This document shows positions 6,606 to 28,308 of a stretch of DNA of 37,503 nucleotides, piece by piece. Location of the stretch: NCBI GenBank assembly GCA_005880875.1, contig VBJI01000077.1:1-37503 (forward strand), read 5' to 3'. The number at the start of each line of letters is the position of its first letter. Positions within the stretch are counted from its first letter, which is position 1. Below the pieces are notes generated by a model. It was not told the origin of the DNA. It ran no database searches and saw nothing but the letters and a program-made list of their open reading frames with translations. Position numbers and translations under genes: made by a program. Source of the DNA: Chloroflexota bacterium (GTDB lineage Bacteria > Chloroflexota > Dormibacteria > CF-121).

Positions 6606-7334
6606 ATGCTGGAGGTTCGCCGCGATCGAGAGGTCCACCAGGAGGAGGGTGGCTGGTTCCACGCCCGCTGGCACTTTTCCTTCGATCGCTACCGGGACCC
6701 CAAGCAGATGGGGCTTGGCCCGCTGCGGGTGTTCAATCACGATCGCCTGGCACCTGGAGCCATCTGGCCCATGCACCCGCACGCCGACGTCGAAGGCATC
6801 ACCTACGTCTGGAAGGGAACATTCCGACATGCCGACAGCCTGGGCAACGACGGCACCCTGCAGCCTGGCGGCGTTCAACTGATGACGCTTGGCTCCGGCG
6901 CCGAGCATTCGGAGCAAAACGGTTCCAAGAACGAGCCCATGGAGTTCTTGCAGCTGTGGATCCTGCCCGATACTGCCGGTCTGCCCCCATCGGTCCAACA
7001 GCATCAGTTCGCCGAAGCCGAGCGCAGCGACCAGCTGCTGCGGGTGATCGGGCCAGAAAGCACCGACGTGATCAAGATTCACCAGGACGCCACCGTGTAC
7101 GTGTCGTCCATGACCGCTGGCCGCGAAGTGTCACACAACTTCGGTCCCGGCCGGGGCGGCTACCTCTATCTGATCGAAGGCAGCCTGCGGCTCGGAAACG
7201 AGCGACTCTCCACCGGTGACGCGGTCAAAGTCTTCGAGGAGCGCGACCTTCCCATCCAGGCCGACCACGCCAGTGAACTGCTGCTGGTCGACGTCCCTTT
7301 GCGGTTCACCCCGGTCGGCGTCTGGGCCCGCTGA
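6606..7334 (+). CDS. Pirin family bicupin protein (YhhW/YhaK-like)
   Basis: This 242-residue protein has the pirin layout. The N-terminal cupin carries all four expected metal ligands: His57 and His59 in MHPHADVEGITYV, and His101 and Glu103 in GAEHSEQN. These sit at the positions described for E. coli YhhW, which has quercetin 2,3-dioxygenase activity in vitro. The C-terminal cupin (GYLYLIEGSLRLGNERL) lacks an obvious metal set, as is usual. The gene follows the extradiol dioxygenase by 11 bases and probably shares its transcript, which hints at handling of aromatic or flavonoid-like compounds. The physiological substrate is unknown. Confidence 0.92.
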   Translation: MLEVRRDREVHQEEGGWFHARWHFSFDRYRDPKQMGLGPLRVFNHDRLAPGAIWPMHPHADVEGITYVWKGTFRHADSLGNDGTLQPGGVQLMTLGSGAEHSEQNGSKNEPMEFLQLWILPDTAGLPPSVQQHQFAEAERSDQLLRVIGPESTDVIKIHQDATVYVSSMTAGREVSHNFGPGRGGYLYLIEGSLRLGNERLSTGDAVKVFEERDLPIQADHASELLLVDVPLRFTPVGVWAR

Positions 7335-7337
7335 TAC

Positions 7338-7423
7338 GGTAACCTTATCGTTACCAACGCTCGAACACCAGCCAAGGAACAATCGAATGCGAGCGCGCTA
7401 GCGCGGCCGGAGAAAAGTCCGGC
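7338..7423 (+). promoter_or_regulatory. Cluster of three inverted repeats upstream of the rhodanese gene
   Basis: The 102-base gap holds three separate dyads. GGTAAC-CTTATC-GTTACC spans 7338-7355, just after the pirin stop. CGCGCTAGCGCG is a perfect 12-base palindrome at 7394-7405. GCCGGA-GAAAAG-TCCGGC is a 6-bp stem with a 6-base loop at 7406-7423. The first could end the pirin transcript or bind a regulator; the other two lie 13-42 bases before the rhodanese ATG and could be an operator or a leader hairpin. No known riboswitch was recognised. Confidence 0.4.
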
Positions 7424-7436
7424 GTAAATTAGGCGC

Positions 7437-8150
7437 ATGCCTTCGCAGGTGTTTTCCACGGCGGACGTCAGGCGACTACTGGAACAAGGCGCACAGTTGC
7501 TCGACGTCCTGGGGGCCGACGAATTCGCGCACGACCACCTGCCGGGGGCGATCAACATACCCCTGAAGCAGCTGGATGCGAGCTCCGCCGCCCGCTTGGA
7601 CCGCAACCGGCCAGTGCTCGTCTACTGCAACGATTTCGGTTGAGATCTCTCGCCCCGGGCCGCGTCGCGGCTCGAGTCGCTGGGGTTCACGCAGGTGTTC
7701 GACTACGTACCGGGCAAGGAGGGTTGGTACGAAGACAACGGGCCTCGCGAAGGCCAGGCAACGGACGAGATCTGGATCGGCGACGTCGCCGACAGCACTG
7801 TCCCGACCTGCCACTTGAAAGAGCGTGTCGGCGAGCTGCGTGATCGCGTTCGGGCCGATGGACGCGACACCTGCGTGGCGATCGACCCGCAGGGCATCGT
7901 GCTGGGGCTGCTCCGCAACAGGGCGCTGGAGGCGAGTCCCCAGGCGACTGCTGAGGAGGTCATGGCTCCGGGGCCGAAGACCTTCCGGCCGAATGTGACG
8001 TTGCAGGAATTGCTCAAGTCGATGCGTGACCACGACATCCAGACCAACAGCCTGGTGACGGCGGCGGACGGCCGCCTGCTGGGCGTCATCTCGCGTGCCG
8101 ACGCGGAAGCCACGTTTGCCCACGAGGGGACCGTCGAAGCGGCGCCCTAG
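7437..8150 (+). CDS. Rhodanese-CBS protein interrupted by one in-frame TGA (selenoprotein candidate or pseudogene)
   Basis: One reading frame runs from the ATG at 7437 to the TAG at 8150 with a single TGA at codon 69 (7641-7643). Codons 1-68 encode a rhodanese N-terminal half ending in the active-site loop LVYCNDFG, with Cys64 as the expected sulfur-accepting residue. Directly after the TGA the same frame continues as DLSPRAASRLESLGFTQVFD, the expected helix and strand of the same domain, so the break is a single codon and not a frameshift. From about residue 105 there are two CBS motifs (VAIDPQGIVLGLLRNRAL and SLVTAADGRLLGVISRADA). Read through, the product is 237 residues. The TGA falls five residues after Cys64, at the edge of the loop. 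It may encode selenocysteine, replace a Cys or Trp by mutation, or be a sequencing error. If it acts as a stop, only a truncated half-domain is made. Confidence 0.75.
7641..7673 (+). other. In-frame TGA followed by SECIS-like hairpin
   Basis: Directly after the TGA at 7641-7643, GGGCCGC (7657-7663) can pair with GCGGCTC (7667-7673), including one G-U pair. The three-base apical loop is GUC. The loop begins about 20 bases after the TGA and has a G at its first position. This agrees with the usual description of bacterial SECIS elements: a small loop with an early G, about 16-37 bases downstream. GC-rich coding DNA often folds by chance, so this is suggestive only. Confidence 0.35.
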
Positions 8151-16787: not shown

Positions 16788-19241
16788 CCAGGATCGTGAC
16801 AGTGGTGGTAAGAGGACGAGCACGGCCGCGGTGGCGAGCAGCATGTCGAAGGCGCTCCAGATGCCAAAGTCGCGCACCGTCGGCACCGGACTGAGCGCGA
16901 GCACGGCAAAGCCGGCGGTCAAGGCCAGCGCCGACGCGGCGATCGCCGGGCCGACGCGGACCGACGCGAGGTGGGCGGCCTCCCCGGGATCGATCCCATT
17001 TTCCAGCTCGCCGCGATAGCGGGCGAGCCACAGGACGCTGAACTCGGTGGCGAAGGCGATCACGACGCCGCCGAGAAGGATCGTGATCGGACTGGAGCGC
17101 GCGTTGAAGATGCTGCCATAGAGGAACAGCAACCCGGTCGCGGCGCCCGCCGCCACTACCGTCGGCAGTAAGGCGAGGATCGCCGGCCGAATCCTCCGAT
17201 AGCCGAGCAGCAACACCACCAGGATCAGCGCGATGGCGAGCAGCGTCAATCGCAGCTGGTCTGCCTGGAGCCCGGCCAGCGCCTGGTCCGCGATCACGGC
17301 CAGCCCGGCGGGGAAGACGCGAAACCCTGACGGCGGCGCCCCGCCGGCGTTCCGCAAGGTCGAGACCAGGGTCCGGTCGCGGTCGACCGACGTCACGTGC
17401 GTCAGCCCGAAGATGGAAAGGGCCAGCCCGTGCTGGTTGTCGTACACGGCGCCCGTGAAATAGCCCGGGATCCGGTCGAGAATCAGCGCCGTCATCTTCG
17501 AGTCGGGCAGCTTTCCCTGGTTGAAGCCGGCCAGAAATCCGGGGAGGCTCTCGAGCGCCTTGAGGTCGCCACCCGACTGCGCGCTCGCCTGGTTGCCGGC
17601 CTGGTCGAGCCAGTGCACGGCCGTGGTAGACGTCGGATCGTGTCCCTGGACGACGAGATCGATCTCGCCCGCCAGCCCGACGGCCCTGCGCACCTGCTCC
17701 GCCTGGGCGAGCGCGCTGTCTCCCGGCGGCACGAGTTGAGCCGGATCGGTTTCGATCTTGATCGCCGGCAAGGCCGCCCATCCGACGAGCCCCACCACGA
17801 CGACCGCGACGGCAACCCCCGGCGCTAAGCCGGCGATTCTGGCGATCCGACGCCCGGCCGCGGTCCGCATGCGGGTCGCGTTGAAAACACTGGGAAATCT
17901 TCGGCCCAGCAACAGCAGAGACGGAAGACCGACCAGGTAGTTCGCGACATAGGCCATCGCCACGCCGAGCGCCATGAACAGCCCGAACTGGCGCACCAGG
18001 GGAATGCCCGACACCACGAAGGCGAGCATGCCCGCGGCGGTGGCGGCCGCCGCCAGCCCGGTGGAGGGAAGGATGCGGCGAGAAGCGAGCGTCACCCGCT
18101 CCTCCAGGGTCCCGTCGGCATCCATCACCCGGTTGATCGACTGGATGAAGTAGTCGGTGGCGAGTCCCAGCACTACCGGGAGGACGACCAGCGTGGCCGG
18201 CGTCACCGGCAGTCCGGCAAAGCCCGCGATCCCCGCGGTCCACAGTGCCCCGAGGGCGGCGACGGCGATCGTCAGCAGCGTCGAGGTGCCGAGCGCCAGG
18301 ACCGCGACGACCAGCACCCCCACCAAGGCGAGCGGCAGCAGGAACTTCAGCGCGTTGAAGACCGAATCCGCCACCGATAGGGTCAGCGCGGGGGAGCCGG
18401 AAGCGGTGAAGCGCAGGTCGTGCAATTCCTGGAGGTCGCTCGCGCTCGACGCGCTCCTGATGATGTCCATGATGTGCCGGACCTGGTCGAGTGAGGCGTT
18501 GCGGTTGAGCCGTACTGTGATGATCGCGTGCTGCATGTCGGGGAGGGCCCAGGTCCAGAAGGGTCGTACGTGTTGCCCGTCCGGTTCCAGCAGGACCCCC
18601 TGGATGAAGGTCGGGTTGTTGACCGCCGGCACGCCCAGGGTCGGCAGGGCTTTCGCGTAGCGCTGGGCGCAGGCACCGACCGCTTGCTGGAAGGCCTGCT
18701 GCGCGGCGGCATCCTGCTGCGACTGCGACTTGCCGGCGGCGACCGCCTGCTGGCGGGCGGCGGTCTCGGCGCTCTTTCCCTCCTGGGCGCAGACCTGGAG
18801 CAGGATGGTGGTGGTGCTGATCGCCAGGGTGTTGACCAGCGTGCCGGGGCCGTACACCTTCTTGACGCCGGGCGCCTGGTGAAGCTTCCCCTCGAGATGG
18901 GACAGGCCGACAATGTGGTCGGGCGTGATCAGGTTGGCGCCGGCGACCGGCTGCGCCATCACCACCACCGGGTCGGCGCCGAATGTGTCGGCAAAGAGCG
19001 CCTGGTCCTTGAAGGCACTCGCACCGGTGTCGACCAGCAGATCGACACGCGCGTCCGGATGAAGGCGCATCAACCCGAGCAGGCTGCCGGCTGAGACAAG
19101 CAGTGCCAGCAGCAGCAGGAGGAGAGGCCAGCGAGAGGGCGCCGCGAACAGCAGGCTCGATGAGGCCGCCCGGCGTCGCACCGGCGCGGTCGGAGCGGCG
19201 TCCCTAGTTGCCAAGGAAGAGCGAAATAAGGTCTTGATCAT
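16779..19241 (-). CDS. MmpL/RND-family (HAE3-like) membrane transporter, last gene of the mce operon
   Basis: This 820-residue protein has the MmpL layout: a first helix (about 35-57), a large extracytoplasmic domain, five clustered helices, a second extracytoplasmic domain and a second set of helices. The first cluster carries the proton-relay type motif LGLATDYFIQSINR; the second has FATEFSVLWLARYR, with Glu-Phe in place of Asp-Tyr. Extracytoplasmic domain 1 has an unusual Gln/Ala-rich stretch (about 150-190, SQSQQDAAAQQAFQQAV), probably a coiled coil. The gene starts 38 bases inside the last mce gene, so it is translationally coupled and part of the same operon. The probable role is lipid or hydrophobic compound transport with the Mce complex. 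The cargo is unknown. Confidence 0.9.
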   Translation of the reverse strand: MIKTLFRSSLATRDAAPTAPVRRRAASSSLLFAAPSRWPLLLLLLALLVSAGSLLGLMRLHPDARVDLLVDTGASAFKDQALFADTFGADPVVVMAQPVAGANLITPDHIVGLSHLEGKLHQAPGVKKVYGPGTLVNTLAISTTTILLQVCAQEGKSAETAARQQAVAAGKSQSQQDAAAQQAFQQAVGACAQRYAKALPTLGVPAVNNPTFIQGVLLEPDGQHVRPFWTWALPDMQHAIITVRLNRNASLDQVRHIMDIIRSASSASDLQELHDLRFTASGSPALTLSVADSVFNALKFLLPLALVGVLVVAVLALGTSTLLTIAVAALGALWTAGIAGFAGLPVTPATLVVLPVVLGLATDYFIQSINRVMDADGTLEERVTLASRRILPSTGLAAAATAAGMLAFVVSGIPLVRQFGLFMALGVAMAYVANYLVGLPSLLLLGRRFPSVFNATRMRTAAGRRIARIAGLAPGVAVAVVVVGLVGWAALPAIKIETDPAQLVPPGDSALAQAEQVRRAVGLAGEIDLVVQGHDPTSTTAVHWLDQAGNQASAQSGGDLKALESLPGFLAGFNQGKLPDSKMTALILDRIPGYFTGAVYDNQHGLALSIFGLTHVTSVDRDRTLVSTLRNAGGAPPSGFRVFPAGLAVIADQALAGLQADQLRLTLLAIALILVVLLLGYRRIRPAILALLPTVVAAGAATGLLFLYGSIFNARSSPITILLGGVVIAFATEFSVLWLARYRGELENGIDPGEAAHLASVRVGPAIAASALALTAGFAVLALSPVPTVRDFGIWSAFDMLLATAAVLVLLPPLSRSWLR

Positions 19242-20286
19242 GGACCGGTGGCGCCTGCGACGAAGGTGATGCGGTACCGCAGGGCGGCGAAGGCGCGTGG
19301 CCGTTGCCGGTCGGCACCACCTGGACCCGGACGTAGTGGCCGTTGCCGTCCTGGCCGCCGAAGGCGGACTTGGTCTCCAGCACCGCCTGCATCAGGCAGG
19401 GGAGTGCCGGGTTGACGCCCACGATGACCGCATCGAGTTCGCCGGCCACCACCCGCAACTGGTCGACGGTGGCCGGGCCCTTCGACAGGATATGGGCCAG
19501 GTTCGCCGAGTTGCCCTGCAGCGCGGTATCGAGCTCCTGCGTCACCGCCGCCGTGTGGTCGATCCCGGACCCGATCGAGTCCTCCACTTGCACCAGGCCG
19601 CTCAGCACCAGGTCGGTATCGGCGATCTGGCGGTCGATCGGCGCGTTTTGCAGGTCGCGATCGAGTTGCTCGCTGGCGATGATCAGGCCGGCGAGGTCGT
19701 CGGCGCGATTGTGCAACACCGTGGTGGTGGACGACACGTCAGCCGAGGATTGACCCAGCGCCTGGAACGCGGTATTCATTTGGGCGCCGCGTCCGTCGGC
19801 CGCCTTGCCAAGCTCGACAAAGATGGTCTTGAGGTTGGCTCGGACGTCGGGCTGCAACTCGTTCAGCACCTGGTCGAAATCCGTCGACACGGTGGTGCGG
19901 GAGAGTGGTATCGAGGCCCCGTCGCGCAGCCGGCCGTTGCTGCCGCCTTGCAGATAAACGAACTTCGGACCGAGCAATCCATGCGGGCGGATCGCCGCCG
20001 TCGTATCGGCATGCAGCTGACTCGCGTAGCGCGGGTCGATGGACACGCCGATGAGGGCGTAGCCGTTGCTGTAGCGGACCCGATCGACCGACCCGACCCG
20101 CGCTCCACTCAACTCCACCCAGGCGCCCGGACTGAGCTCGCCGTAGGCGCCCGCCTGCAGCTGCAGGTGAAGCGGCTGGTTCCAGGGGAGAGAGAACGGG
20201 GTGAAGACCAGGATCGCGAACGCGCAGGCCGCGACCGCCACCACCAGTCCGACCAGGCGCGAGCCCGCCAGGCGTCTCCGCTTCAC
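19204..20286 (-). CDS. Mce family protein (sixth mce gene of the operon)
   Basis: The true start is the GTG at 20286, which overlaps the stop of the previous gene (GTGA), giving 360 residues; the open frame further upstream is noise from the neighbouring proline-rich tail. An N-terminal helix (about 8-28) anchors the protein. The MCE domain follows (LQAGAYGELSPGAWVELSGARVG, broken as positions about 42-64, then AAIRPHGLLGPKFVYLQGG). After this comes a long helical region (SADVSSTTTVLHNRADDLAG) that would form the tunnel. The C-terminal part holds QAVLETKSAFGGQDGNGHYV, echoing the AQDGQGYATR and YRDGNGNLLR segments of the sister proteins. It is coupled to the MmpL gene by a 38-base overlap. 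Confidence 0.9.
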   Translation of the reverse strand: MKRRRLAGSRLVGLVVAVAACAFAILVFTPFSLPWNQPLHLQLQAGAYGELSPGAWVELSGARVGSVDRVRYSNGYALIGVSIDPRYASQLHADTTAAIRPHGLLGPKFVYLQGGSNGRLRDGASIPLSRTTVSTDFDQVLNELQPDVRANLKTIFVELGKAADGRGAQMNTAFQALGQSSADVSSTTTVLHNRADDLAGLIIASEQLDRDLQNAPIDRQIADTDLVLSGLVQVEDSIGSGIDHTAAVTQELDTALQGNSANLAHILSKGPATVDQLRVVAGELDAVIVGVNPALPCLMQAVLETKSAFGGQDGNGHYVRVQVVPTGNGHAPSPPCGTASPSSQAPPVHDQDLISLFLGN

Positions 20287-21710
20287 GAGGGCGCTCCGAA
20301 AAGAAGCAGAGTCAGCCAGTCGGGAAGAAGGCCCAGCGGCGGCAGCGTGACCCCCGGCAGGGATGGGCACAGCGAGGGGCTGGGACTCGGGGTGGGAACT
20401 TTGGGTGGCGTCGGCGTGGGGGGCATGCAGGGGACACTGGGAGTTGGGACCGCGGAGATCGATGGACAGGGCAACGGCGAGAGCGTCGGCGTGGGGAGTT
20501 TCGGGGGCGTTGGGGTGGGCAAACACTTTGGCAGCGGCAGCGTCGGCAGCGAAGGCAACGCCGGCAGAGCGGCCGCCGGCGCCTGGCCGACGCCGGTCTG
20601 GCACTGCGGGTTGGCCTGCGGGTTGACCTGGTCGCAGGCCGGGTTGACGACGTAGTACTGGCGGAGCAGGTGATTGCCGGCGGCATCGGTCTGCGAGACC
20701 GCACTGACGAGCTCGGGTTGCAGCACCCGGTTGTTGGTGTTGATGGCCCCGATGCTGCTGTGAGTATCGGCCGCCACGATCGCGAGCGTTCCGTTCAGCT
20801 GCGTCAGTAACGGGTCCAGGGTGACGATCGTGGTGTGGAAGTTCTGCTCATTGCCGGCGAGCGTCGCATCGAAGTCACCCATCACGTTGCCCAGGTGGGT
20901 GATCAAAGAGGCGAGGGCCCGGTCATTGCTGGCCAGCGTGCCGGTGACATCACTCATGCCGCCCACCAGGTCTCCGAGCTGCTGATGGCTCTGCGCCAAC
21001 CGGTCACTGACGATCGCCAGGTTGGCGACGATTCGGTCGATGTCAGGGTCATGCTGATGAAAGGTGCCGAGCGGTGTGAGCGATTCCTGCGACAGGCCGT
21101 TGAGCTGGGTCAGCAGGTCGTTGATGGTTTCTTGCTGGCCTTGCAGGCCGCCGCCCGTCTGCTGGATCAGGGTTTGCAGTCGCGCGCGGGTCTGTGGGTC
21201 GAGAGCGCTGAGGAACTGATCGAAGTCGACCGGGCTCAGCGTGTTGTCGCTTTGAATGGTGCCGCCGCTCTGCAACTCGGCGCCGCCATTGACCGGAGTG
21301 ATCTCGATGTACTTCTGCGCCAGCAGCGTGGAGTATCGGATCCGGGCGGAGGTGAACTGGTGCAGCGGCGCATAGTGCGGCGAGATCCGCATGGTGACCA
21401 GCGCCCGCGTTCCGGAGACCTCGACGCCGCTGACCTGGCCGACGGAGTGGCCGGCGATCACGACATCCGCCCCACGGCTGACGCCGTTGGCATCGATGAA
21501 TGCGGCCCTGACCGAATAGTCCTGCCCGGGTGGGGCCAGGCTGAGGTTGAAGGGAAGCCCGAAGCTGATGTTGATCGCGATCGCCAGCAGGGCGATGATC
21601 AGGACCGCAACCAGGGTGATCACGCCCGCCCTGAAGGGATTGCCCGGGCCCGCCGGCCCACGCGAGCGGCGCTTTAGTGCCAGGCGAGCGTTTGAGGCGT
21701 TCAGGTTCAT
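20283..21710 (-). CDS. Mce family protein with proline-rich C-terminal tail (fifth mce gene)
   Basis: This 475-residue protein is the longest Mce protein here. The N-terminus is basic (RLALKRRSRGPAG), followed by one helix (about 29-51). The MCE domain spans about 62-140, with GADVVIAGHSVGQVSGVEVS and STLLAQKYIEITPVNGG. A helical region reaches residue about 340. Residues 382-462 are dominated by proline with threonine, serine and regularly spaced cysteines, then a hydrophobic end (LTLLLFGAPS). It starts at the ATG overlapping the previous stop (ATGA). The proline-rich tail is an extension not shared with the other five Mce proteins in this operon and may span the cell wall. Confidence 0.9.
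   Translation of the reverse strand: MNLNASNARLALKRRSRGPAGPGNPFRAGVITLVAVLIIALLAIAINISFGLPFNLSLAPPGQDYSVRAAFIDANGVSRGADVVIAGHSVGQVSGVEVSGTRALVTMRISPHYAPLHQFTSARIRYSTLLAQKYIEITPVNGGAELQSGGTIQSDNTLSPVDFDQFLSALDPQTRARLQTLIQQTGGGLQGQQETINDLLTQLNGLSQESLTPLGTFHQHDPDIDRIVANLAIVSDRLAQSHQQLGDLVGGMSDVTGTLASNDRALASLITHLGNVMGDFDATLAGNEQNFHTTIVTLDPLLTQLNGTLAIVAADTHSSIGAINTNNRVLQPELVSAVSQTDAAGNHLLRQYYVVNPACDQVNPQANPQCQTGVGQAPAAALPALPSLPTLPLPKCLPTPTPPKLPTPTLSPLPCPSISAVPTPSVPCMPPTPTPPKVPTPSPSPSLCPSLPGVTLPPLGLLPDWLTLLLFGAPS
20325..20567 (-). repeat. Proline-rich low-complexity tail with an imperfect repeat
   Basis: The coding segment for residues 382-462 of the fifth Mce protein contains two copies of a degenerate unit of the form C-[LM]-P-P/T-PTPPK-[LV]-PTP, each followed by an SP-rich run and a Cys-Pro-Ser. 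On the other strand it reads as a glycine/valine repeat, which is only its mirror. Confidence 0.7.
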
Positions 21711-22732
21711 CCGCCGCCTCCGCTGCAGGCGATTCGCGTCGGGTTGACCGGCTCGCTTCCCGTAAAGACATACGGATGGACCCGCAACAGGTTGCCATTG
21801 CCGTCGCGGTAGGAGGTAGCACTCCGCATTTCGGCGAGCGTCTGGACGATGTCGGCCATGCAGGGGTCGATGATCGCCAGCGAGGTGGCGGAGTGGTCGG
21901 AGAGTTTTTGCAGCTCGTCGAGCACGGCCGGCAACTGCTTGAGCATCTTGTTGAGATCGCCTTCGTGTCCCTTGAGACCCGCGGCCAGCTCACCGAGCGC
22001 GCGATCCGCGTAGACCAGCTCCGCCTGGAGTTGCGCCTCGTGGGCCGCGGTCACGTCCAGCAGGCTGGCGCCGTTGGCGATGTCGCGCCGGAAGGCCTGG
22101 TCCTCGGTCGCCATCATCTGGGCGATCCGGTCGAACTCGACGTCCAGGGCGCTGAGCTGCTGGTCCTGTTGCGCGATCTTTCCGGTAACGACCGACGTGT
22201 CCTGCATGATCCCCGGCAACGCCGCCAGAAAGACATTCAGGTCGGCGCCGCGGCCTGCCAATGCCGCGCCGCCCTCACGGGTGAGGGTCTGGATGCGTGC
22301 CCGCGTCTGCGGGTCGAAGAGGTCCATGACCTGGTCGAGGTCCACGGGAGAGGCCGTGTCCTGCAGCGGCAGGGTGCCGCCGGACGGGATCGTCTGTGCG
22401 CTCGGCGGTCCGGCGGTGAGCTCCACGAAGGGATTTCCGAGCAGGCCCTTCGTCCGGATGGTGGCGCGAGTGCCGCGGTGAAGCGGTGCGGAGCCGGAGT
22501 CGATTTCCATCACGACCTGCGCGCCGCCGACGCTCGGACCATTGTCCGCCGCGATGCCGACCGAGGTCACCCGGCCGACGCGGCTGCCGTTCACGACGAC
22601 ATCGTTCTCCTGGGTCAGCCCTTCGGCGCTCAGGAAGTAGGCGGTCACGGTGTACGGATGGTTGCCGAAAAGGGTGGCGGTGAGGCCGCCCAGCAGGCCG
22701 GCGGCGGCAAGTAACGCGACCAGCAGCTTCAT
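21707..22732 (-). CDS. Mce family protein (fourth mce gene)
   Basis: The start is the ATG at 22732, overlapping the previous stop as ATGA, and gives 341 residues. The N-terminal helix is MKLLVALLAAAGLLGGLTA. The MCE domain follows, with YTVTAYFLSAEGLTQENDVV, then GSRVGRVTSVGIAADNG and IRTKGLLGNPFVELTAG. The rest is mainly helical (LNKMLKQLPAVLDELQKLS) with a C-terminal SATSYRDGNGNLLRVHPYVF segment shared with sisters. It ends with a glycine tail (CSGGGG). As a subunit of the Mce complex it is expected to be anchored in the cytoplasmic membrane and to contribute to a hexameric MCE ring and helical channel. Confidence 0.9.
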   Translation of the reverse strand: MKLLVALLAAAGLLGGLTATLFGNHPYTVTAYFLSAEGLTQENDVVVNGSRVGRVTSVGIAADNGPSVGGAQVVMEIDSGSAPLHRGTRATIRTKGLLGNPFVELTAGPPSAQTIPSGGTLPLQDTASPVDLDQVMDLFDPQTRARIQTLTREGGAALAGRGADLNVFLAALPGIMQDTSVVTGKIAQQDQQLSALDVEFDRIAQMMATEDQAFRRDIANGASLLDVTAAHEAQLQAELVYADRALGELAAGLKGHEGDLNKMLKQLPAVLDELQKLSDHSATSLAIIDPCMADIVQTLAEMRSATSYRDGNGNLLRVHPYVFTGSEPVNPTRIACSGGGG

Positions 22733-23886
22733 CGGCCGTTCCCCAGCTGCATCAGCAGCAGATCGGCGAGGTCCTGCGGCACCGCCGGTCCGCCGTTCGG
22801 GATGCCGACGCCGGGCAGCGCGCTGCCGGTGGTCTGCTTCGAAGGTGTCAGCCCGGTGATCCGCAGCGAGTGGATCCCGGCCGCGTCGGCGTGGGAGAAA
22901 GCGGAGATCCATTCCGCGGCCAGCGTCAGCGATTCCGAATCGCTGATATTCAGCTGGTCGTTGGGATAGGTGATCTGTCCCAGCAGCAGCTCGGGCAGGA
23001 GCTGATCGACCTGCGCGTTGGTCAAGCTCAGGGTGCGACGTCCGGCCGCGATCGTCGACGGGCTCTTCTGCAATGAGGCACGGTCGGCCGCGGTCACGCC
23101 GCTGAAGGCCTGGTCGAGCGAGCCGAAGGCGGCGGCCCCATTTCGCACCGTACCCGCGAGCGCCTGGTCGCGTGCGGCGATCCCGCTCATCACGGTGTCG
23201 CCGCTGTCGACCAGGTGGCCGAGCTGATCCTGTTCGTCCGCCAGCGCCTGCATGATGGTGTTCAGGTTCGTCAGGATTCGGTCCAGCTCTTTGGCGCGAC
23301 TTTCACCGACGCGCGCCAGCGGCCGAAGATTGGTCATCGTGCTGTCCAGCGGCCCCAGCGCGGCGCTGAGGTCCTGCTGCCGGCCGTCGAGCGCGACCCC
23401 CAGCTGCCGAAACGATTCGGACATCGCCTGACGGGTTGGCGCATCCATGGCATTGAGGATGTCGTCGATCTCGATCGCCTGACCGGTCTGGGCTTTGGGG
23501 ATGGTGGCCTCGCTCTGCAGATAGGGCTCAGCACTCGACTGGGGCCGAACCAGCTCGACGAACTTCTCGCCCAGCAGGGTTTTCGGCCGGATCACCGCGC
23601 GGGTATCCTGGCGCAGCCGGATGTTGGGCTGAAGCGCCATCTTGACCAGCGCCCCGCCATCGCTGGAATCCGTGATGGTCAGCACGGTGCCGACGTGTAC
23701 ACCGCTGACCCGCACCTCGGCCTGCGGGACGAGGCCGTTCGCGCTGGCGAACTCGGCGTTGAGCGCGAACTCGTTGCTCCAGGGCCCGTGTAAGCCCATG
23801 TTCAGGGCGATCCATCCGAGCCCGAACAGGCAGGCCGCGGCAAAGACCACCACCATCGCGACGCTGATGAAGGTGCGGCGCGCCAT
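22729..23886 (-). CDS. Mce family protein (third mce gene)
   Basis: The start is the ATG at 23886, sharing one base with the previous stop (TAATG), and gives 385 residues. The N-terminal helix is FISVAMVVVFAAACLFGLGW. The MCE domain includes FASANGLVPQAEVRVSGVHV, GTVLTITDSSDGGALVKMAL and IRPKTLLGEKFVELVRPQ, which is a complete set and a useful reference for the damaged first mce gene. Helical segments follow (LNTIMQALADEQDQLGHLVD). The C-terminus (ALPGVGIPNGGPAVPQDLAD) is short and proline/glycine-rich. It overlaps the next gene by four bases. Confidence 0.9.
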   Translation of the reverse strand: MARRTFISVAMVVVFAAACLFGLGWIALNMGLHGPWSNEFALNAEFASANGLVPQAEVRVSGVHVGTVLTITDSSDGGALVKMALQPNIRLRQDTRAVIRPKTLLGEKFVELVRPQSSAEPYLQSEATIPKAQTGQAIEIDDILNAMDAPTRQAMSESFRQLGVALDGRQQDLSAALGPLDSTMTNLRPLARVGESRAKELDRILTNLNTIMQALADEQDQLGHLVDSGDTVMSGIAARDQALAGTVRNGAAAFGSLDQAFSGVTAADRASLQKSPSTIAAGRRTLSLTNAQVDQLLPELLLGQITYPNDQLNISDSESLTLAAEWISAFSHADAAGIHSLRITGLTPSKQTTGSALPGVGIPNGGPAVPQDLADLLLMQLGNGR

Positions 23887-24923
23887 TACGGGACCCCCGG
23901 CTGGAAGCACTGATCGGCGCAATTGACGCGCCACATGTGCACCCAATCGTTGGGATTGCTGCCGGCTTCGTCGGGGTGGCCGATTCCGCTCATCACCGAG
24001 GCCAGCTCCCGGAAGAGCTGCTGGATGCCTGGCGTATCGTTCTGAACCGCGCCGAAAACGGTGGCGGCGCCGCTCAGGTAGTGGTTGGCATTGTCGATCG
24101 TCGCCGGGCCCTCGGCGAGGGCGCCGTGCAGCTGTTGGGCGGCGCCGCCACTCAACCCCTGGTCGAAGATGGCCATCACCCGATCCTGTTCGACAATCGT
24201 GCCCTGCAGGTTTTGCTCGCGGGAGGCGAGCGTGGCCATCACGTTGTCCCAGTCCGCGATCATCGCCCTGAAGTCCGCATGCCAGGCGGCCAGGGTTTCC
24301 ATCACCTTGCGCAGGTCGCTGATCAGGGCGTCGAGATGATCCGAATTATTCGCCAGCGTCTGGGCCAGTACCCGCAGGTCGACGGCCACGGACGACAGGT
24401 CGGCGGCGGACGCATTCATGTCCTGGCCGCGGCCGGCGGTGGCCTGGCCCAGGGTGTTGATGACGATGTCGAGCTGATCGCGAACCTGCGGGTCGAGCGC
24501 GTTCAGGACCTGGTCGATTTCGACCGGCGTGAGGGTGTGGTCTTGGGCAATCGTGCCGCCATCCGGGATGGCACCCTGCGACGCGTTGCCACGGTTGACC
24601 TCGATGTACGTCTCGCCCAGCAGGTTCTTCTGCCGGATGACGGCCCGAGCGTCCTTGAAGACGGGGGTCAAGTCCCGATGAAGCAGCATGGTGACCTGCG
24701 TGGCCCCCGCCATCGGCGTGAGGCTCTCCACCTTGCCCACCCGGAGTCCCGACATGGTGACGTCGTCGCCGGCCACGAGGTCGGCGCCGGTGTTGAACAC
24801 GGCATTGAGCCGGTAACCCCCGAAGACGAACTCGCCACCCATTTGCGCGGCAAGGAACGTGGTTGCTAGCAAGCCGAGGAGCAGGTAGGCGATGAACACC
24901 GGGAGGTTGGCGCGGCTTCTCAT
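23886..24923 (-). CDS. Mce family protein (second mce gene)
   Basis: This 345-residue Mce subunit starts at the ATG at 24923, overlapping the previous stop by four bases. The N-terminal helix is LPVFIAYLLLGLLATTFLAA. The MCE domain is intact: FGGYRLNAVFNTGADLVAGD, VTMSGLRVGKVESLTPMAGA and IRQKNLLGETYIEVNRGN. A helical domain follows, including LDALISDLRKVMETLAAWHA. The end has a Cys pair (NCADQC). There is nothing unusual in codon use or length. It belongs to the same transcript as the other mce genes. Confidence 0.92.
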   Translation of the reverse strand: MRSRANLPVFIAYLLLGLLATTFLAAQMGGEFVFGGYRLNAVFNTGADLVAGDDVTMSGLRVGKVESLTPMAGATQVTMLLHRDLTPVFKDARAVIRQKNLLGETYIEVNRGNASQGAIPDGGTIAQDHTLTPVEIDQVLNALDPQVRDQLDIVINTLGQATAGRGQDMNASAADLSSVAVDLRVLAQTLANNSDHLDALISDLRKVMETLAAWHADFRAMIADWDNVMATLASREQNLQGTIVEQDRVMAIFDQGLSGGAAQQLHGALAEGPATIDNANHYLSGAATVFGAVQNDTPGIQQLFRELASVMSGIGHPDEAGSNPNDWVHMWRVNCADQCFQPGVP

Positions 24924-25878
24924 CGGCCGCCTCTAAGCAGGACACCGACCACGGCGTCGAACGAATCAGGGATCGGAGCCTGGCCGGCCCCGGCATTCAG
25001 GGGCAGGGTGCAGGGATTGACGCCGGGGCTGCAGCCGCCCACCAACACACTGATTCGGGTGGCGTAACCCTGACCGTCCTGCGCACCGAAAACATCAGGA
25101 CCGTACTTCTCGCCGCGGGTGAAGGTCCCCATGTCCGCCACGAGCAAGTCCGTGTTGCTGGCGAAGTCCCGGGTCAGCCCGTTGAGCAGGTCGACGGTCC
25201 GGGGCGCCTGCTGCAGAATGCTGTTCAGCTGGGTGGCGGTCCCCGACAGCGACGTGTCGGTGCGGCCCAGCGCCGCATTGGCGTTGGCGAGCGTGAGCTT
25301 GATCTGGGCGTCCTGCTGCGAGAGCGAATGGAGGAGCGTCTGCGAATTCTTGATCAGTGCTCCCAGCTCCTGCCGCCGGTCGCTCTTCGCCAGTTCGGCG
25401 GTCACCTGGTCCAGGCCCTGGATCACCTGTTGCAGGTCCTGGTCGCGCGCCGCCAGCGTGTCGGTGATCGCCGCCAGGTGGTCGAGGTCCTGGCGCCCAT
25501 AGCTGATCGTCTGGTTGGTGTTCAGCCCCTGGCCCGCCAGCCCGCCGCCCAGGGAGATCAACAGGGTGCGCAGCTTTTCCCGGGTCGGCTGATCCAGGCT
25601 GTTGACCACGTCCTGCAGCTCGACCGCTCGGGCGACCTGCGTGTTGGGCAGTTGCGACCCGGACGGGAGCGTATCCGAGCGGCCGGGATCGAGCGCCACG
25701 TATTTCTCACCCAGCAGGCTCTTCGGTCGGACCGTCACGGTGGCGTCCGCGTGCGGACGACCAGTCGATACTCCGTGAGTCCGTTGACGATTCGTGAAGA
25801 CACGATGGCCAGCAGCACGATCACGGCCACGACCAGGAGGGGGCCATACCTGGTCACCCAGGCGCGGATCGCGTCCAC
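24920..25878 (-). pseudogene. First mce gene, disrupted: N-terminal helix and MCE body out of frame
   Basis: The expected start is the GTG at 25878, directly after the ATPase stop (TAGGTG). That frame encodes a typical Mce N-terminus (VDAIRAWVTRYGPLLVVAVI, then VLLAIVSSRIVNGLTEYRLV) but hits TGA at 25735-25737 after 47 codons. The rest of an Mce protein, from HADATVTVRPKSLLGEKYVA (H codon at 25753) to the stop at 24920, lies in another frame. In the sister proteins about 45-50 residues (the first strands and the V-x-G-V-x-V-G turn) separate the two parts; here they are missing. So the gene seems to carry a deletion of about 140 bases that also shifts the frame. The body keeps helical segments and a normal tail (AQDGQGYATRISVLVGG). 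An assembly error is the main alternative. Confidence 0.75.
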
Positions 25879-26652
25879 CTACTCCATGCCAAGGGGCCCA
25901 TCGATGGCGCCCTTGATGAACTGCTGGGTAAAGGGGTTGCGCGACTGCTGCAACTCTTCCTTGGAGCCCTGGTCGACCACCTTGCCGCCGTGCAACAGGA
26001 TGATGTGGTCGCCGATGTTGAAGCACGATTTGATGTCATGGCTGATCACGACGCCGGTCGACTTGTACTTCTGCTGAATCTGCTTGATCAGGTCGCAGAG
26101 CAAGGCGGTGCGAACCGGGTCGAGCCCTGAGTCCGGCTCATCGAAGAGGAGGATCTCGGGCTCGAGCACGAGGGCGCGCGCGAAGCCGGCGCGCTTGCGC
26201 ATCCCGCCGGAGAGCTCGTTCGGCATCTTCTTGACCGCCTCGGTCAAGCCGACCTCCTCCAGCCGCTGGATCACGATCTCTTTGATCTCCGCCTCGGATT
26301 TCCGCGTGTGCTGCCGGAGGGGAAAGGCGACATTGTCGTAGAGGTTCATCGAGCTGAACAGGGCGCCGTCCTGGAACAGCATGCCGACGTTCCGACGTAG
26401 CTCGAGCAGCTCTTCCTCGCCCAGGCTGGGGACGCTCTTGCCGGCCACCCGTACGTCGCCCTTGTCCGGGTAAAGCAGGCCCACGAGATGGCGGAGCAGC
26501 ACGCTCTTGCCGGTTCCGGAAGGTCCCATCACGACGGAGATCTTGCCCGCGGGAATCTGGCAGGTGACGCCCTCCAGCACCTGCTTGCCTTCGAAGGCCT
26601 TGTACAGGTCCTCCACCTCGACCATCGCCTCGCCGTTTTTAGTCATGCTCAT
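25879..26652 (-). CDS. Mce/Mla-type ABC transporter ATP-binding protein (MlaF/MceG-like)
   Basis: This 257-residue ATPase is expected to power the MlaE permeases and Mce proteins. Walker A is GPSGTGKS (43-50), the signature LSGGMRKRAGFARAL (from 147) and Walker B EILLFDEPDSGLDP (from 166). The DSGLDP wording and the GALFSSMNLYDNVAFPL segment are typical of MlaF/MceG/Mkl proteins. It starts one base after the second MlaE stop and ends directly against the GTG of the first mce gene. In mycobacteria the corresponding ATPase gene (mceG) is encoded away from the mce operons; here it sits inside. Confidence 0.94.
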   Translation of the reverse strand: MSMTKNGEAMVEVEDLYKAFEGKQVLEGVTCQIPAGKISVVMGPSGTGKSVLLRHLVGLLYPDKGDVRVAGKSVPSLGEEELLELRRNVGMLFQDGALFSSMNLYDNVAFPLRQHTRKSEAEIKEIVIQRLEEVGLTEAVKKMPNELSGGMRKRAGFARALVLEPEILLFDEPDSGLDPVRTALLCDLIKQIQQKYKSTGVVISHDIKSCFNIGDHIILLHGGKVVDQGSKEELQQSRNPFTQQFIKGAIDGPLGME

Positions 26653-26653
26653 C

Positions 26654-27496
26654 TCAGGATGGGATCGGCAGGTTGGGGTTCTGCCCCCAGAAGATCTGAG
26701 TCAGGATGGCGTTGACGACCACCGTCAGCACCAGGCTGACCGCCATCGTCTTGGCGACGGCGCGGCCGATCCCGACGGCGCCGCCTTTCACGTGGTAGCC
26801 GTAATAGACCCCGACGCAGATCACCAGGAAGGCGAAGATCACCGCCTTGATCAGCGAGTAGCCGAAGTCGGTCAGGTTGGTGAAGCGCCAGAAATAGGAG
26901 AAATACACGCCGTTGGATACCAGCCCGATCTGAAAGCGCTGCACCACCCAGCTGGCGAAAAAGCTGGTGGCGAGCGCGAGCACGTACATCACGGGAAGCA
27001 CGAGGAGGGCGGCCACCATCCGGGTCGTGACCAGGAAGGGAACCGACGGAACACCCATCGTCTCCAGCGCGTCGATCTCTTCGTTGATCCGCATGGTGCC
27101 AAGCTCGGCCACCAGGCCGCAGCCGACCTTGGCCCCGATCGCAAACCCGAAGAACAGGGGCGTGATCTCGCGCATGTCGCAGAGCGCATTGAAGACTCCG
27201 GCAAGACTCTCGGCCCCGCCCAGCTGATGGAGCGAGTAGTACGCCTCAACCGAGCACTCCGAGCCGCTGAAGTAGGTCATCACCAGCGCGACCGGGGTGG
27301 AGCCGATGGCGAGAAAGGCCGCGTACCACCAGATCTCACGGCGGTAGCGCAGGGCTCGCGGGATCGATCGCAACGCGGCAACGGCGAACAGGATGATCTC
27401 GCCGAGGACCTCGAACAGGCCGAAGCCCCGGGCCCAAAACTGCCGTGGAACCGGTCCGAAATCCTGCGCCGGTGGGCGCATCGTGCTGGTGGCCAT
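26654..27496 (-). CDS. MlaE/YrbE family permease (second)
   Basis: This is a 280-residue membrane permease of the Mce transporter. The start is the ATG at 27496, which overlaps the stop of the first permease by one base (TGATG); the longer open frame upstream is noise. The protein shows the MlaE core: SGSECSVEAYYSLHQLGG, GFAIGAKVGCGLVAELGTMR, INEEIDALETMGVPSVPFLV and about five helices. The E-E-I-D-A-L-E-T-M-G motif is the ATPase-coupling helix typical of the family. It is the YrbEB-like partner of the upstream gene. Confidence 0.93.
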   Translation of the reverse strand: MATSTMRPPAQDFGPVPRQFWARGFGLFEVLGEIILFAVAALRSIPRALRYRREIWWYAAFLAIGSTPVALVMTYFSGSECSVEAYYSLHQLGGAESLAGVFNALCDMREITPLFFGFAIGAKVGCGLVAELGTMRINEEIDALETMGVPSVPFLVTTRMVAALLVLPVMYVLALATSFFASWVVQRFQIGLVSNGVYFSYFWRFTNLTDFGYSLIKAVIFAFLVICVGVYYGYHVKGGAVGIGRAVAKTMAVSLVLTVVVNAILTQIFWGQNPNLPIPS

Positions 27497-28308
27497 CAGC
27501 GCAGCACGTTCTGGTTGTGGAACAGGGCCAGCACCGTCGGGGTGTAGAGGTATTCGAGGGCCTGGATGCCGACGAAACACCAGACGACCCCCGAATGGAC
27601 TGCGCGCGCCACACCTTCGGCGCCCCCTTTAGCGCTTATACCTTTATATATGCAGATGGCGGCTACCAGCGCCCCGAAGAGAATGCACTTGATCTCCCCG
27701 CCGAACAGGTCAACCAGCGTGCCCTGGGTGAAGAAGCTCGCCAGGAAAGCGCCCGGGTTGACGCCGACCACCGCCACCGCGATGAAGAAGCCCGACAATG
27801 TGGTGAAGACGATCATCGGCACGTTGTAGAGCGCGGTCATCACCATCAGCGCCAGGGCCCTGGGCACCACGATGAAAAGGACATTCGAGAGACCCATGAC
27901 GCTCAGGGCTTCCAGTTCCTGTCGGACCTGGCGGGCCCCCAGGTCGGCGACGATCGCCGTGCCGCTGACCGCCGCGATCATCAGCCCGGTGGCGACTGGT
28001 GAAAATTCGCGGACGTTGGCCATCACCGTGAACCCGCCCAGCCGCCACTCGCTGCTGGCGGCCGCGAAGAAATGGCCGGCCTCGAGGGAGACGATAACCC
28101 CCCAGCCGACGCCGGTAAGCAACAGCGGAACGAAGTTCGCGCCGAGGATGAAGCGGCATTGATCGAAGAACTCCTTCCAGTAGAAGGGCCGCCGGACGGC
28201 GCCCTGAAGGGCGGCGACGAACAGCAAGCTGAGCTCGCCGACGCCGCTCACGGAGCGTCGCGCCCGGCCGATCACCGGGTTATCACCGCGAACACCCCAA
28301 AGCGCCAC
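27496..28308 (-). CDS. MlaE/YrbE family permease (first gene of the mce operon)
   Basis: This 270-residue MlaE permease has GVGWGVIVSLEAGHFFAAAS, GLMIAAVSGTAIVADLGARQ and VRQELEALSVMGLSNVLFIV, the last being the family's coupling helix. About five helices are visible. It begins with a GTG at 28308 that has only a weak AGG upstream, so the start is not certain; no better in-frame start lies close by. It is divergent from the ECF sigma factor gene, and it heads a run of ten closely spaced genes down to the MmpL gene at 16779. Confidence 0.9.
   Translation of the reverse strand: MALWGVRGDNPVIGRARRSVSGVGELSLLFVAALQGAVRRPFYWKEFFDQCRFILGANFVPLLLTGVGWGVIVSLEAGHFFAAASSEWRLGGFTVMANVREFSPVATGLMIAAVSGTAIVADLGARQVRQELEALSVMGLSNVLFIVVPRALALMVMTALYNVPMIVFTTLSGFFIAVAVVGVNPGAFLASFFTQGTLVDLFGGEIKCILFGALVAAICIYKGISAKGGAEGVARAVHSGVVWCFVGIQALEYLYTPTVLALFHNQNVLR

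Follow-up and report, generated by a model that had tools for sequence, protein, structure and literature searches.

A rhodanese-like gene interrupted by a single in-frame TGA raises the question of how this codon is read. Such a gene lies in a stretch of 37,503 nucleotides (contig VBJI01000077.1, assembly GCA_005880875.1) from a Chloroflexota bacterium, here called the window, and an earlier note on this DNA had proposed the TGA at 7641-7643 as a selenocysteine (Sec) candidate. The proposal is supported by the same TGA in 42 of 42 related genes, by Cys counterparts, by a hairpin of the bacterial SECIS type and by the genome's own selA, selB and selD. Judged from sequence comparison, UGA codon 69 is very probably decoded as selenocysteine, and the gene would then encode a selenoprotein. 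The features of the locus are as follows.

6606..7334, forward strand: pirin/quercetinase-like gene, upstream neighbour (PF02678, PF17954; recurs within the genus)
7437..8150, forward strand: predicted rhodanese-CBS selenoprotein gene, ATG to TAG, 237 residues, Sec at residue 69 (one-TGA frame, domains, family)
7458..7733, forward strand: rhodanese domain, residues 8-99 (Pfam PF00581, E 4e-14)
7626..7628, forward strand: codon of Cys64, the presumed rhodanese nucleophile (Cys in 42 of 42 homologues)
7641..7643, forward strand: TGA read as selenocysteine (predicted), residue 69 (TGA in all 42 aligned homologues, Cys in non-TGA homologues)
7656..7674, forward strand: bacterial SECIS-type hairpin with an 8-bp stem and a GUC loop at 7664-7666 (-13.1 kcal/mol; codons 75, 76, 78 and 79 invariant)
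7797..8102, forward strand: CBS pair (PF00571; family profile aligned to two-CBS regions in solved structures)
7809..7811, forward strand: codon of Cys125 in a VPTC motif, nearly invariant (at least 90% of sequences)

Reading frame and domains

Translation of 7437-8150 gave 238 codons with a terminal TAG and the TGA at codon 69 as the sole internal stop, in agreement with the earlier description of a frame open on both sides. The protein starts with MPSQVF, passes through LVYCNDFG-TGA-DLSPRAASRLE and ends with EAAP-TAG. With 53 bits against a curated Pfam cut-off of 22 and with the catalytic loop Cys in place, the N-terminal half is a rhodanese domain, and this domain runs across the TGA. Cys64 is presumed to be the nucleophile by analogy with the rhodanese family, and the TGA follows five residues on, at the distance already noted (YCNDFG-TGA-DLSPRAA), which would make the active-site loop C-x4-U if the codon is read as Sec.

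The second CBS repeat was found at residues 173-222 (Pfam PF00571, E 9e-9). Because the family profile matches two-CBS regions in solved proteins at residues 111-226, we infer that the C-terminal half is a CBS pair with a divergent first repeat. A structure prediction from five sequences reached a mean pLDDT of 48, too poor to judge the distance between Cys64 and Sec69.

Conservation of the TGA and its cysteine counterparts

In a codon-level alignment of 42 related genes, with a mean pairwise protein identity of 50% and a lowest value of 37%, codon 69 is TGA throughout, and Cys64, Asp70 and Arg74 are invariant. Four close relatives (GTDB genomes, metagenome assemblies) carry TGA at the same codon, and in the close relatives read no additional stops or decay appeared and the TGA was kept in all. 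The fusion was found in about half of 60 relatives searched, with a TGA within each strong match; a search of the class (110 genomes) gave strong matches in 50, all with a TGA, and a 400-genome sample of the phylum repeated the pattern in several further families, strong matches again all containing TGA. A second, divergent Sec gene (L172 3587-4283), with 44% identity to the window gene, accompanies the close copy in one genome (G001). In another (G200, 99% complete), the copy (L174 6366-7100) is frameshifted just past its TGA.

The earlier note had named, with reservation, a conserved Cys near this position in relatives, and this proved correct: the Cys forms have a C-x4-C loop where the window protein has C-x4-Sec. 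The sole full-length Cys version found, in Nonomuraea gerenzanensis (L181), has TGC at codon 69. Standalone rhodaneses of the phylum have Cys at the aligned site, in loops such as CHNARC, CQNARC, CANAPC and CWSPGC, and so does the solved protein BH2092 (PDB 3nhv). An in-frame UGA that is conserved among homologues and aligned with Cys in others is what a selenoprotein is recognised by. As for TGA matches among the short rhodaneses examined, one set has a C-x-TGA form and the rest are ordinary C-terminal stops.

The hairpin downstream of the TGA

A hairpin with a G-first three-base loop about 20 bases past the TGA had been noticed before, and it was recovered at 7656-7674 with 20 nt between UGA and loop and a 3-nt GUC loop. 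Published rules for bacterial SECIS elements ask for a loop of 3-9 nt with G in one of its first two positions, an upper stem of 4-16 bp, a spacing of 16-37 nt and a minimum free energy of -7.5 kcal/mol or lower (PMC13188914), and the hairpin satisfies every one of these constraints. Compared with shuffled sequences, the 19-nt hairpin reached a z of -3.2; folding of the complete 50-nt stretch gave nothing unusual (z -0.6), and only the 19-nt hairpin stands out.

The strongest evidence for a SECIS element comes from synonymous sites. Among the 28 conserved columns that are at least four-fold degenerate in the 42 sequences, a single codon is used in 42 of 42 only at Ala75 (GCC), Ala76 (GCG), Arg78 (CGG) and Leu79 (CTC), whereas in the other 24 the commonest codon averages 54% and never exceeds 73%. 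The four synonymously invariant codons are exactly those of the hairpin. In the alignment, stem pairing is 96% in register as against 25-56% when slid. Two-sided covariation was sought in the hairpin and none was found, because the stem hardly varies (six of its eight pairs never do). The Pseudonocardia copies retain the hairpin with a CGUGC loop, the Nonomuraea Cys gene retains part of its sequence, and in the standalone Cys homologues read it is not kept.

Selenocysteine machinery

The earlier note had asked for a search of the genome for selA, selB, selD and selC. The first three are all in the genome, as expected for an organism that makes selenoproteins: selA and selB overlap on one contig (C243), and selD lies on another (L081, G000:C130:8221-9150; 399 bits). 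This selD carries its own TGA at its Sec site (SHGAG-U-ACKIGPEDL) and is of the Sec type. The fourth, selC, was not found in the assembly, but it is present in most genomes of the genus. Both a covariance model and the DNA of a sister tRNA were used for this search, and at an assembly completeness of 75% the missing tRNA-Sec is weak counter-evidence. A full or partial match to tRNA-Sec was obtained in 12 of 15 genomes of the genus, and ARAGORN confirmed the anticodon TCA in the genus tRNA-Sec sequences fetched.

Partial copies that hold the 68 bases at the 3' end of tRNA-Sec occur repeatedly in G003 (G003:C29:132316-132383, 146579-146646 and 155218-155317) and also in G010, G011 and G014, and in several genomes the partial copies sit on the same contig. 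The pattern is as left by integrative elements that insert at tRNA-Sec, and may be a reason for its loss from assemblies.

Across the 60 relatives, the fusion was found in none of the six without selD above the cut-off (G018, G024, G028, G038, G050 and G056). This co-occurrence agrees with the Sec reading, weakly so because most relatives have selD.

Other readings of the UGA

A genome-wide reassignment of TGA was considered and rejected, as TGA terminates 13 of the 30 clear genes of the window. An unusual tRNA might still decode this UGA as Cys or another residue through the SelB/SECIS route, giving a protein without selenium. The Cys at the aligned site of homologues and the failure to find tRNA-Sec in this assembly would fit such decoding; against it, the genome keeps selA and a Sec-type selD together with selB, and sister genomes carry an ordinary tRNA-Sec, and we regard it as very unlikely. 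That the gene is degenerate or mis-sequenced, with a TGA that arose by nonsense mutation or from a wrong base call, would fit a lone in-frame stop in a metagenome draft and the frameshifted G200 copy, yet it is scarcely credible and is refuted by the conservation of the TGA: the codon recurs in 42 separate genes from different families and phyla, on complete plasmids of isolates as well, and the rest of the protein is conserved.

These plasmids also bear on a reading as two genes, a short rhodanese piece with the TGA as its stop and, downstream, a restarted CBS protein. A plasmid search found TGA versions in Pseudonocardia broussonetiae, P. autotrophica and Rubrobacter marinus; both Pseudonocardia records are annotated in exactly this way in RefSeq (a rhodanese-like protein ending at TGA plus a CBS protein), and in the Rubrobacter record the CBS part alone is annotated. 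However, the rhodanese domain spans the TGA, with conserved residues of one domain on either side, and in Nonomuraea the gene is one and uninterrupted, which makes the split reading highly improbable. Selenocysteine remains the preferred reading of codon 69. Its use in Rubrobacter is plausible, because a published survey lists five selenoproteins for R. xylanophilus (PMC1794560).

Comparison with known rhodanese selenoproteins

A 2026 review describes five forms of rhodanese selenoproteins, with the motifs UxxS, UxxG, CxU, UxxG and UxxxxU, the last being TsoB, and neither a CxxxxU motif nor a CBS fusion is among them (PMC13188914). NCBIfam release 20 holds no specific model for the window protein, and its scores were far below the cut-offs. 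Among the closest known forms is rhodanese-like form 3 (NF041203, CxU; PMC13188914), which shares the rhodanese domain, the retained catalytic Cys and a Sec in the active-site loop. There, however, Sec stands two residues after Cys and here five, so the CxU motif is lacking, and NF041203 was absent from the NCBIfam hits of the window protein. Short rhodaneses of other Chloroflexota (L159, L160, L161, L162, L163 and L169) have a C-x-TGA loop, YCT-TGA-PSEESSARAA, with an N-terminal hydrophobic stretch and without CBS, and from this motif they would belong to the NF041203/CxU form. The C-x-TGA and C-x4-TGA arrangements coexist in Chloroflexota.

TsoB (NF045694, rhodanese/DsbD fusion-like; PMC13188914) likewise has two redox residues five apart, possibly at the same two loop positions as Cys64 and Sec69. 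It contains two Sec and a DsbD-like part, whereas the window protein has one Sec, from a single TGA, and a CBS pair, and scored 23 bits where the cut-off is 805. Forms 1, 2 and 4 (UxxS, UxxG; PMC13188914) also combine a rhodanese domain with Sec, but their descriptions set them apart, with motifs that lack Cys-x4-Sec and no CBS fusion mentioned. Among Cys proteins, standalone C-x4-C rhodaneses such as BH2092 share the loop, Cys standing where the window protein has Sec; they differ in having no CBS pair and, in those read, no SECIS hairpin. The Nonomuraea protein has the same full-length architecture at 39.5% identity, with Cys in place of Sec.

By sequence, the proteins make up an apparently undescribed family of Cys-x4-Sec rhodanese-CBS selenoproteins, present in Chloroflexota of soil and on certain plasmids of actinobacteria. 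It would be of a known kind, the bacterial selenoproteins; neither its Sec position nor its fusion of domains appears in the published lists found. A literature search for selenocysteine, rhodanese and CBS domain together returned no paper; an earlier description is possible, the 2025 literature being incompletely covered. The family would add a Sec position in the rhodanese loop that the 2026 review does not contain, and few selenoproteins of soil Chloroflexota are described in the literature found. In current records the gene is annotated as two, or part of it is missed. With Pseudonocardia autotrophica, P. broussonetiae and Rubrobacter marinus as carriers, and with the natural Cys version of Nonomuraea gerenzanensis, the role of Sec as against Cys can be tested directly.

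Possible function and genomic neighbours

SelB and tRNA-Sec very probably insert selenocysteine at UGA codon 69, aided by the hairpin 20 nt downstream. The mechanism proposed for the protein draws on rhodanese and selenol chemistry in general. Cys64 would accept sulfane sulfur or an oxidant, Sec69 would attack the species bound to Cys64 and release the reduced product, and the Cys-Sec bond so formed would be re-reduced by a thioredoxin-like partner. By analogy this is the most likely chemistry, although as a whole it has somewhat less than an even chance of being right. Because CBS domains in general respond in this manner, the CBS pair probably tunes the activity in response to an adenine nucleotide.

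Another proposal is metal detoxification in place of sulfur or peroxide chemistry, with mercury or another soft metal bound by Cys64 and Sec69. About 10 to 95 bases separate the end of merA from the gene downstream of it in three genera of a single Chloroflexota family, in G200 merA and merB lie downstream of the frameshifted copy, and on the P. autotrophica plasmid MerR, an alkylmercury lyase and a DF-family (seleno)protein are encoded upstream. Such neighbours in several lineages offer a concrete functional hypothesis. Against it, the window's genus gave no MerA match, most MerA carriers of the class are without the gene, and mer genes were not seen near most of its loci, so that metal binding as the function appears rather unlikely. 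A mercury role was not adopted for the window copy, as its genus has no MerA match. Mercury handling may be one use of the family, the common denominator being the Cys-x4-Sec loop and the CBS pair. In its widest form, the idea of a Sec-dominated enzyme family that places a Cys-x4-Sec rhodanese loop under a nucleotide-sensing CBS pair, links selenium-based handling of persulfide or mercury to the energy state of the cell and travels on plasmids with mercury-resistance genes is tentative and, taken whole, doubtful.

Mercury genes beside the gene were recorded at L194 9016-10980, L190 6344-8370, L185 1467-3370, L174 6366-9554 and L179 1466-3648. On a Pseudonocardia plasmid the DF-family (seleno)protein gene lies between the mercury genes and the rhodanese-CBS gene.

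In the window, and often elsewhere in the genus, the upstream neighbour is the pirin/quercetinase-like gene, which is common to close relatives only and is probably not a fixed partner. A fixed operon was rejected, as the pirin neighbour recurs only in the genus and neighbours differ in other lineages. Between the two genes lies a perfect inverted repeat, GGTAAC-N6-GTTACC (7338-7355), of which none is expected by chance in the window and which was not seen in the relatives inspected. Farther downstream, at 19204-28308, a run of genes resembles mce-type lipid transport (permease, ATPase and several MCE-like proteins), as judged by eye from the translations.
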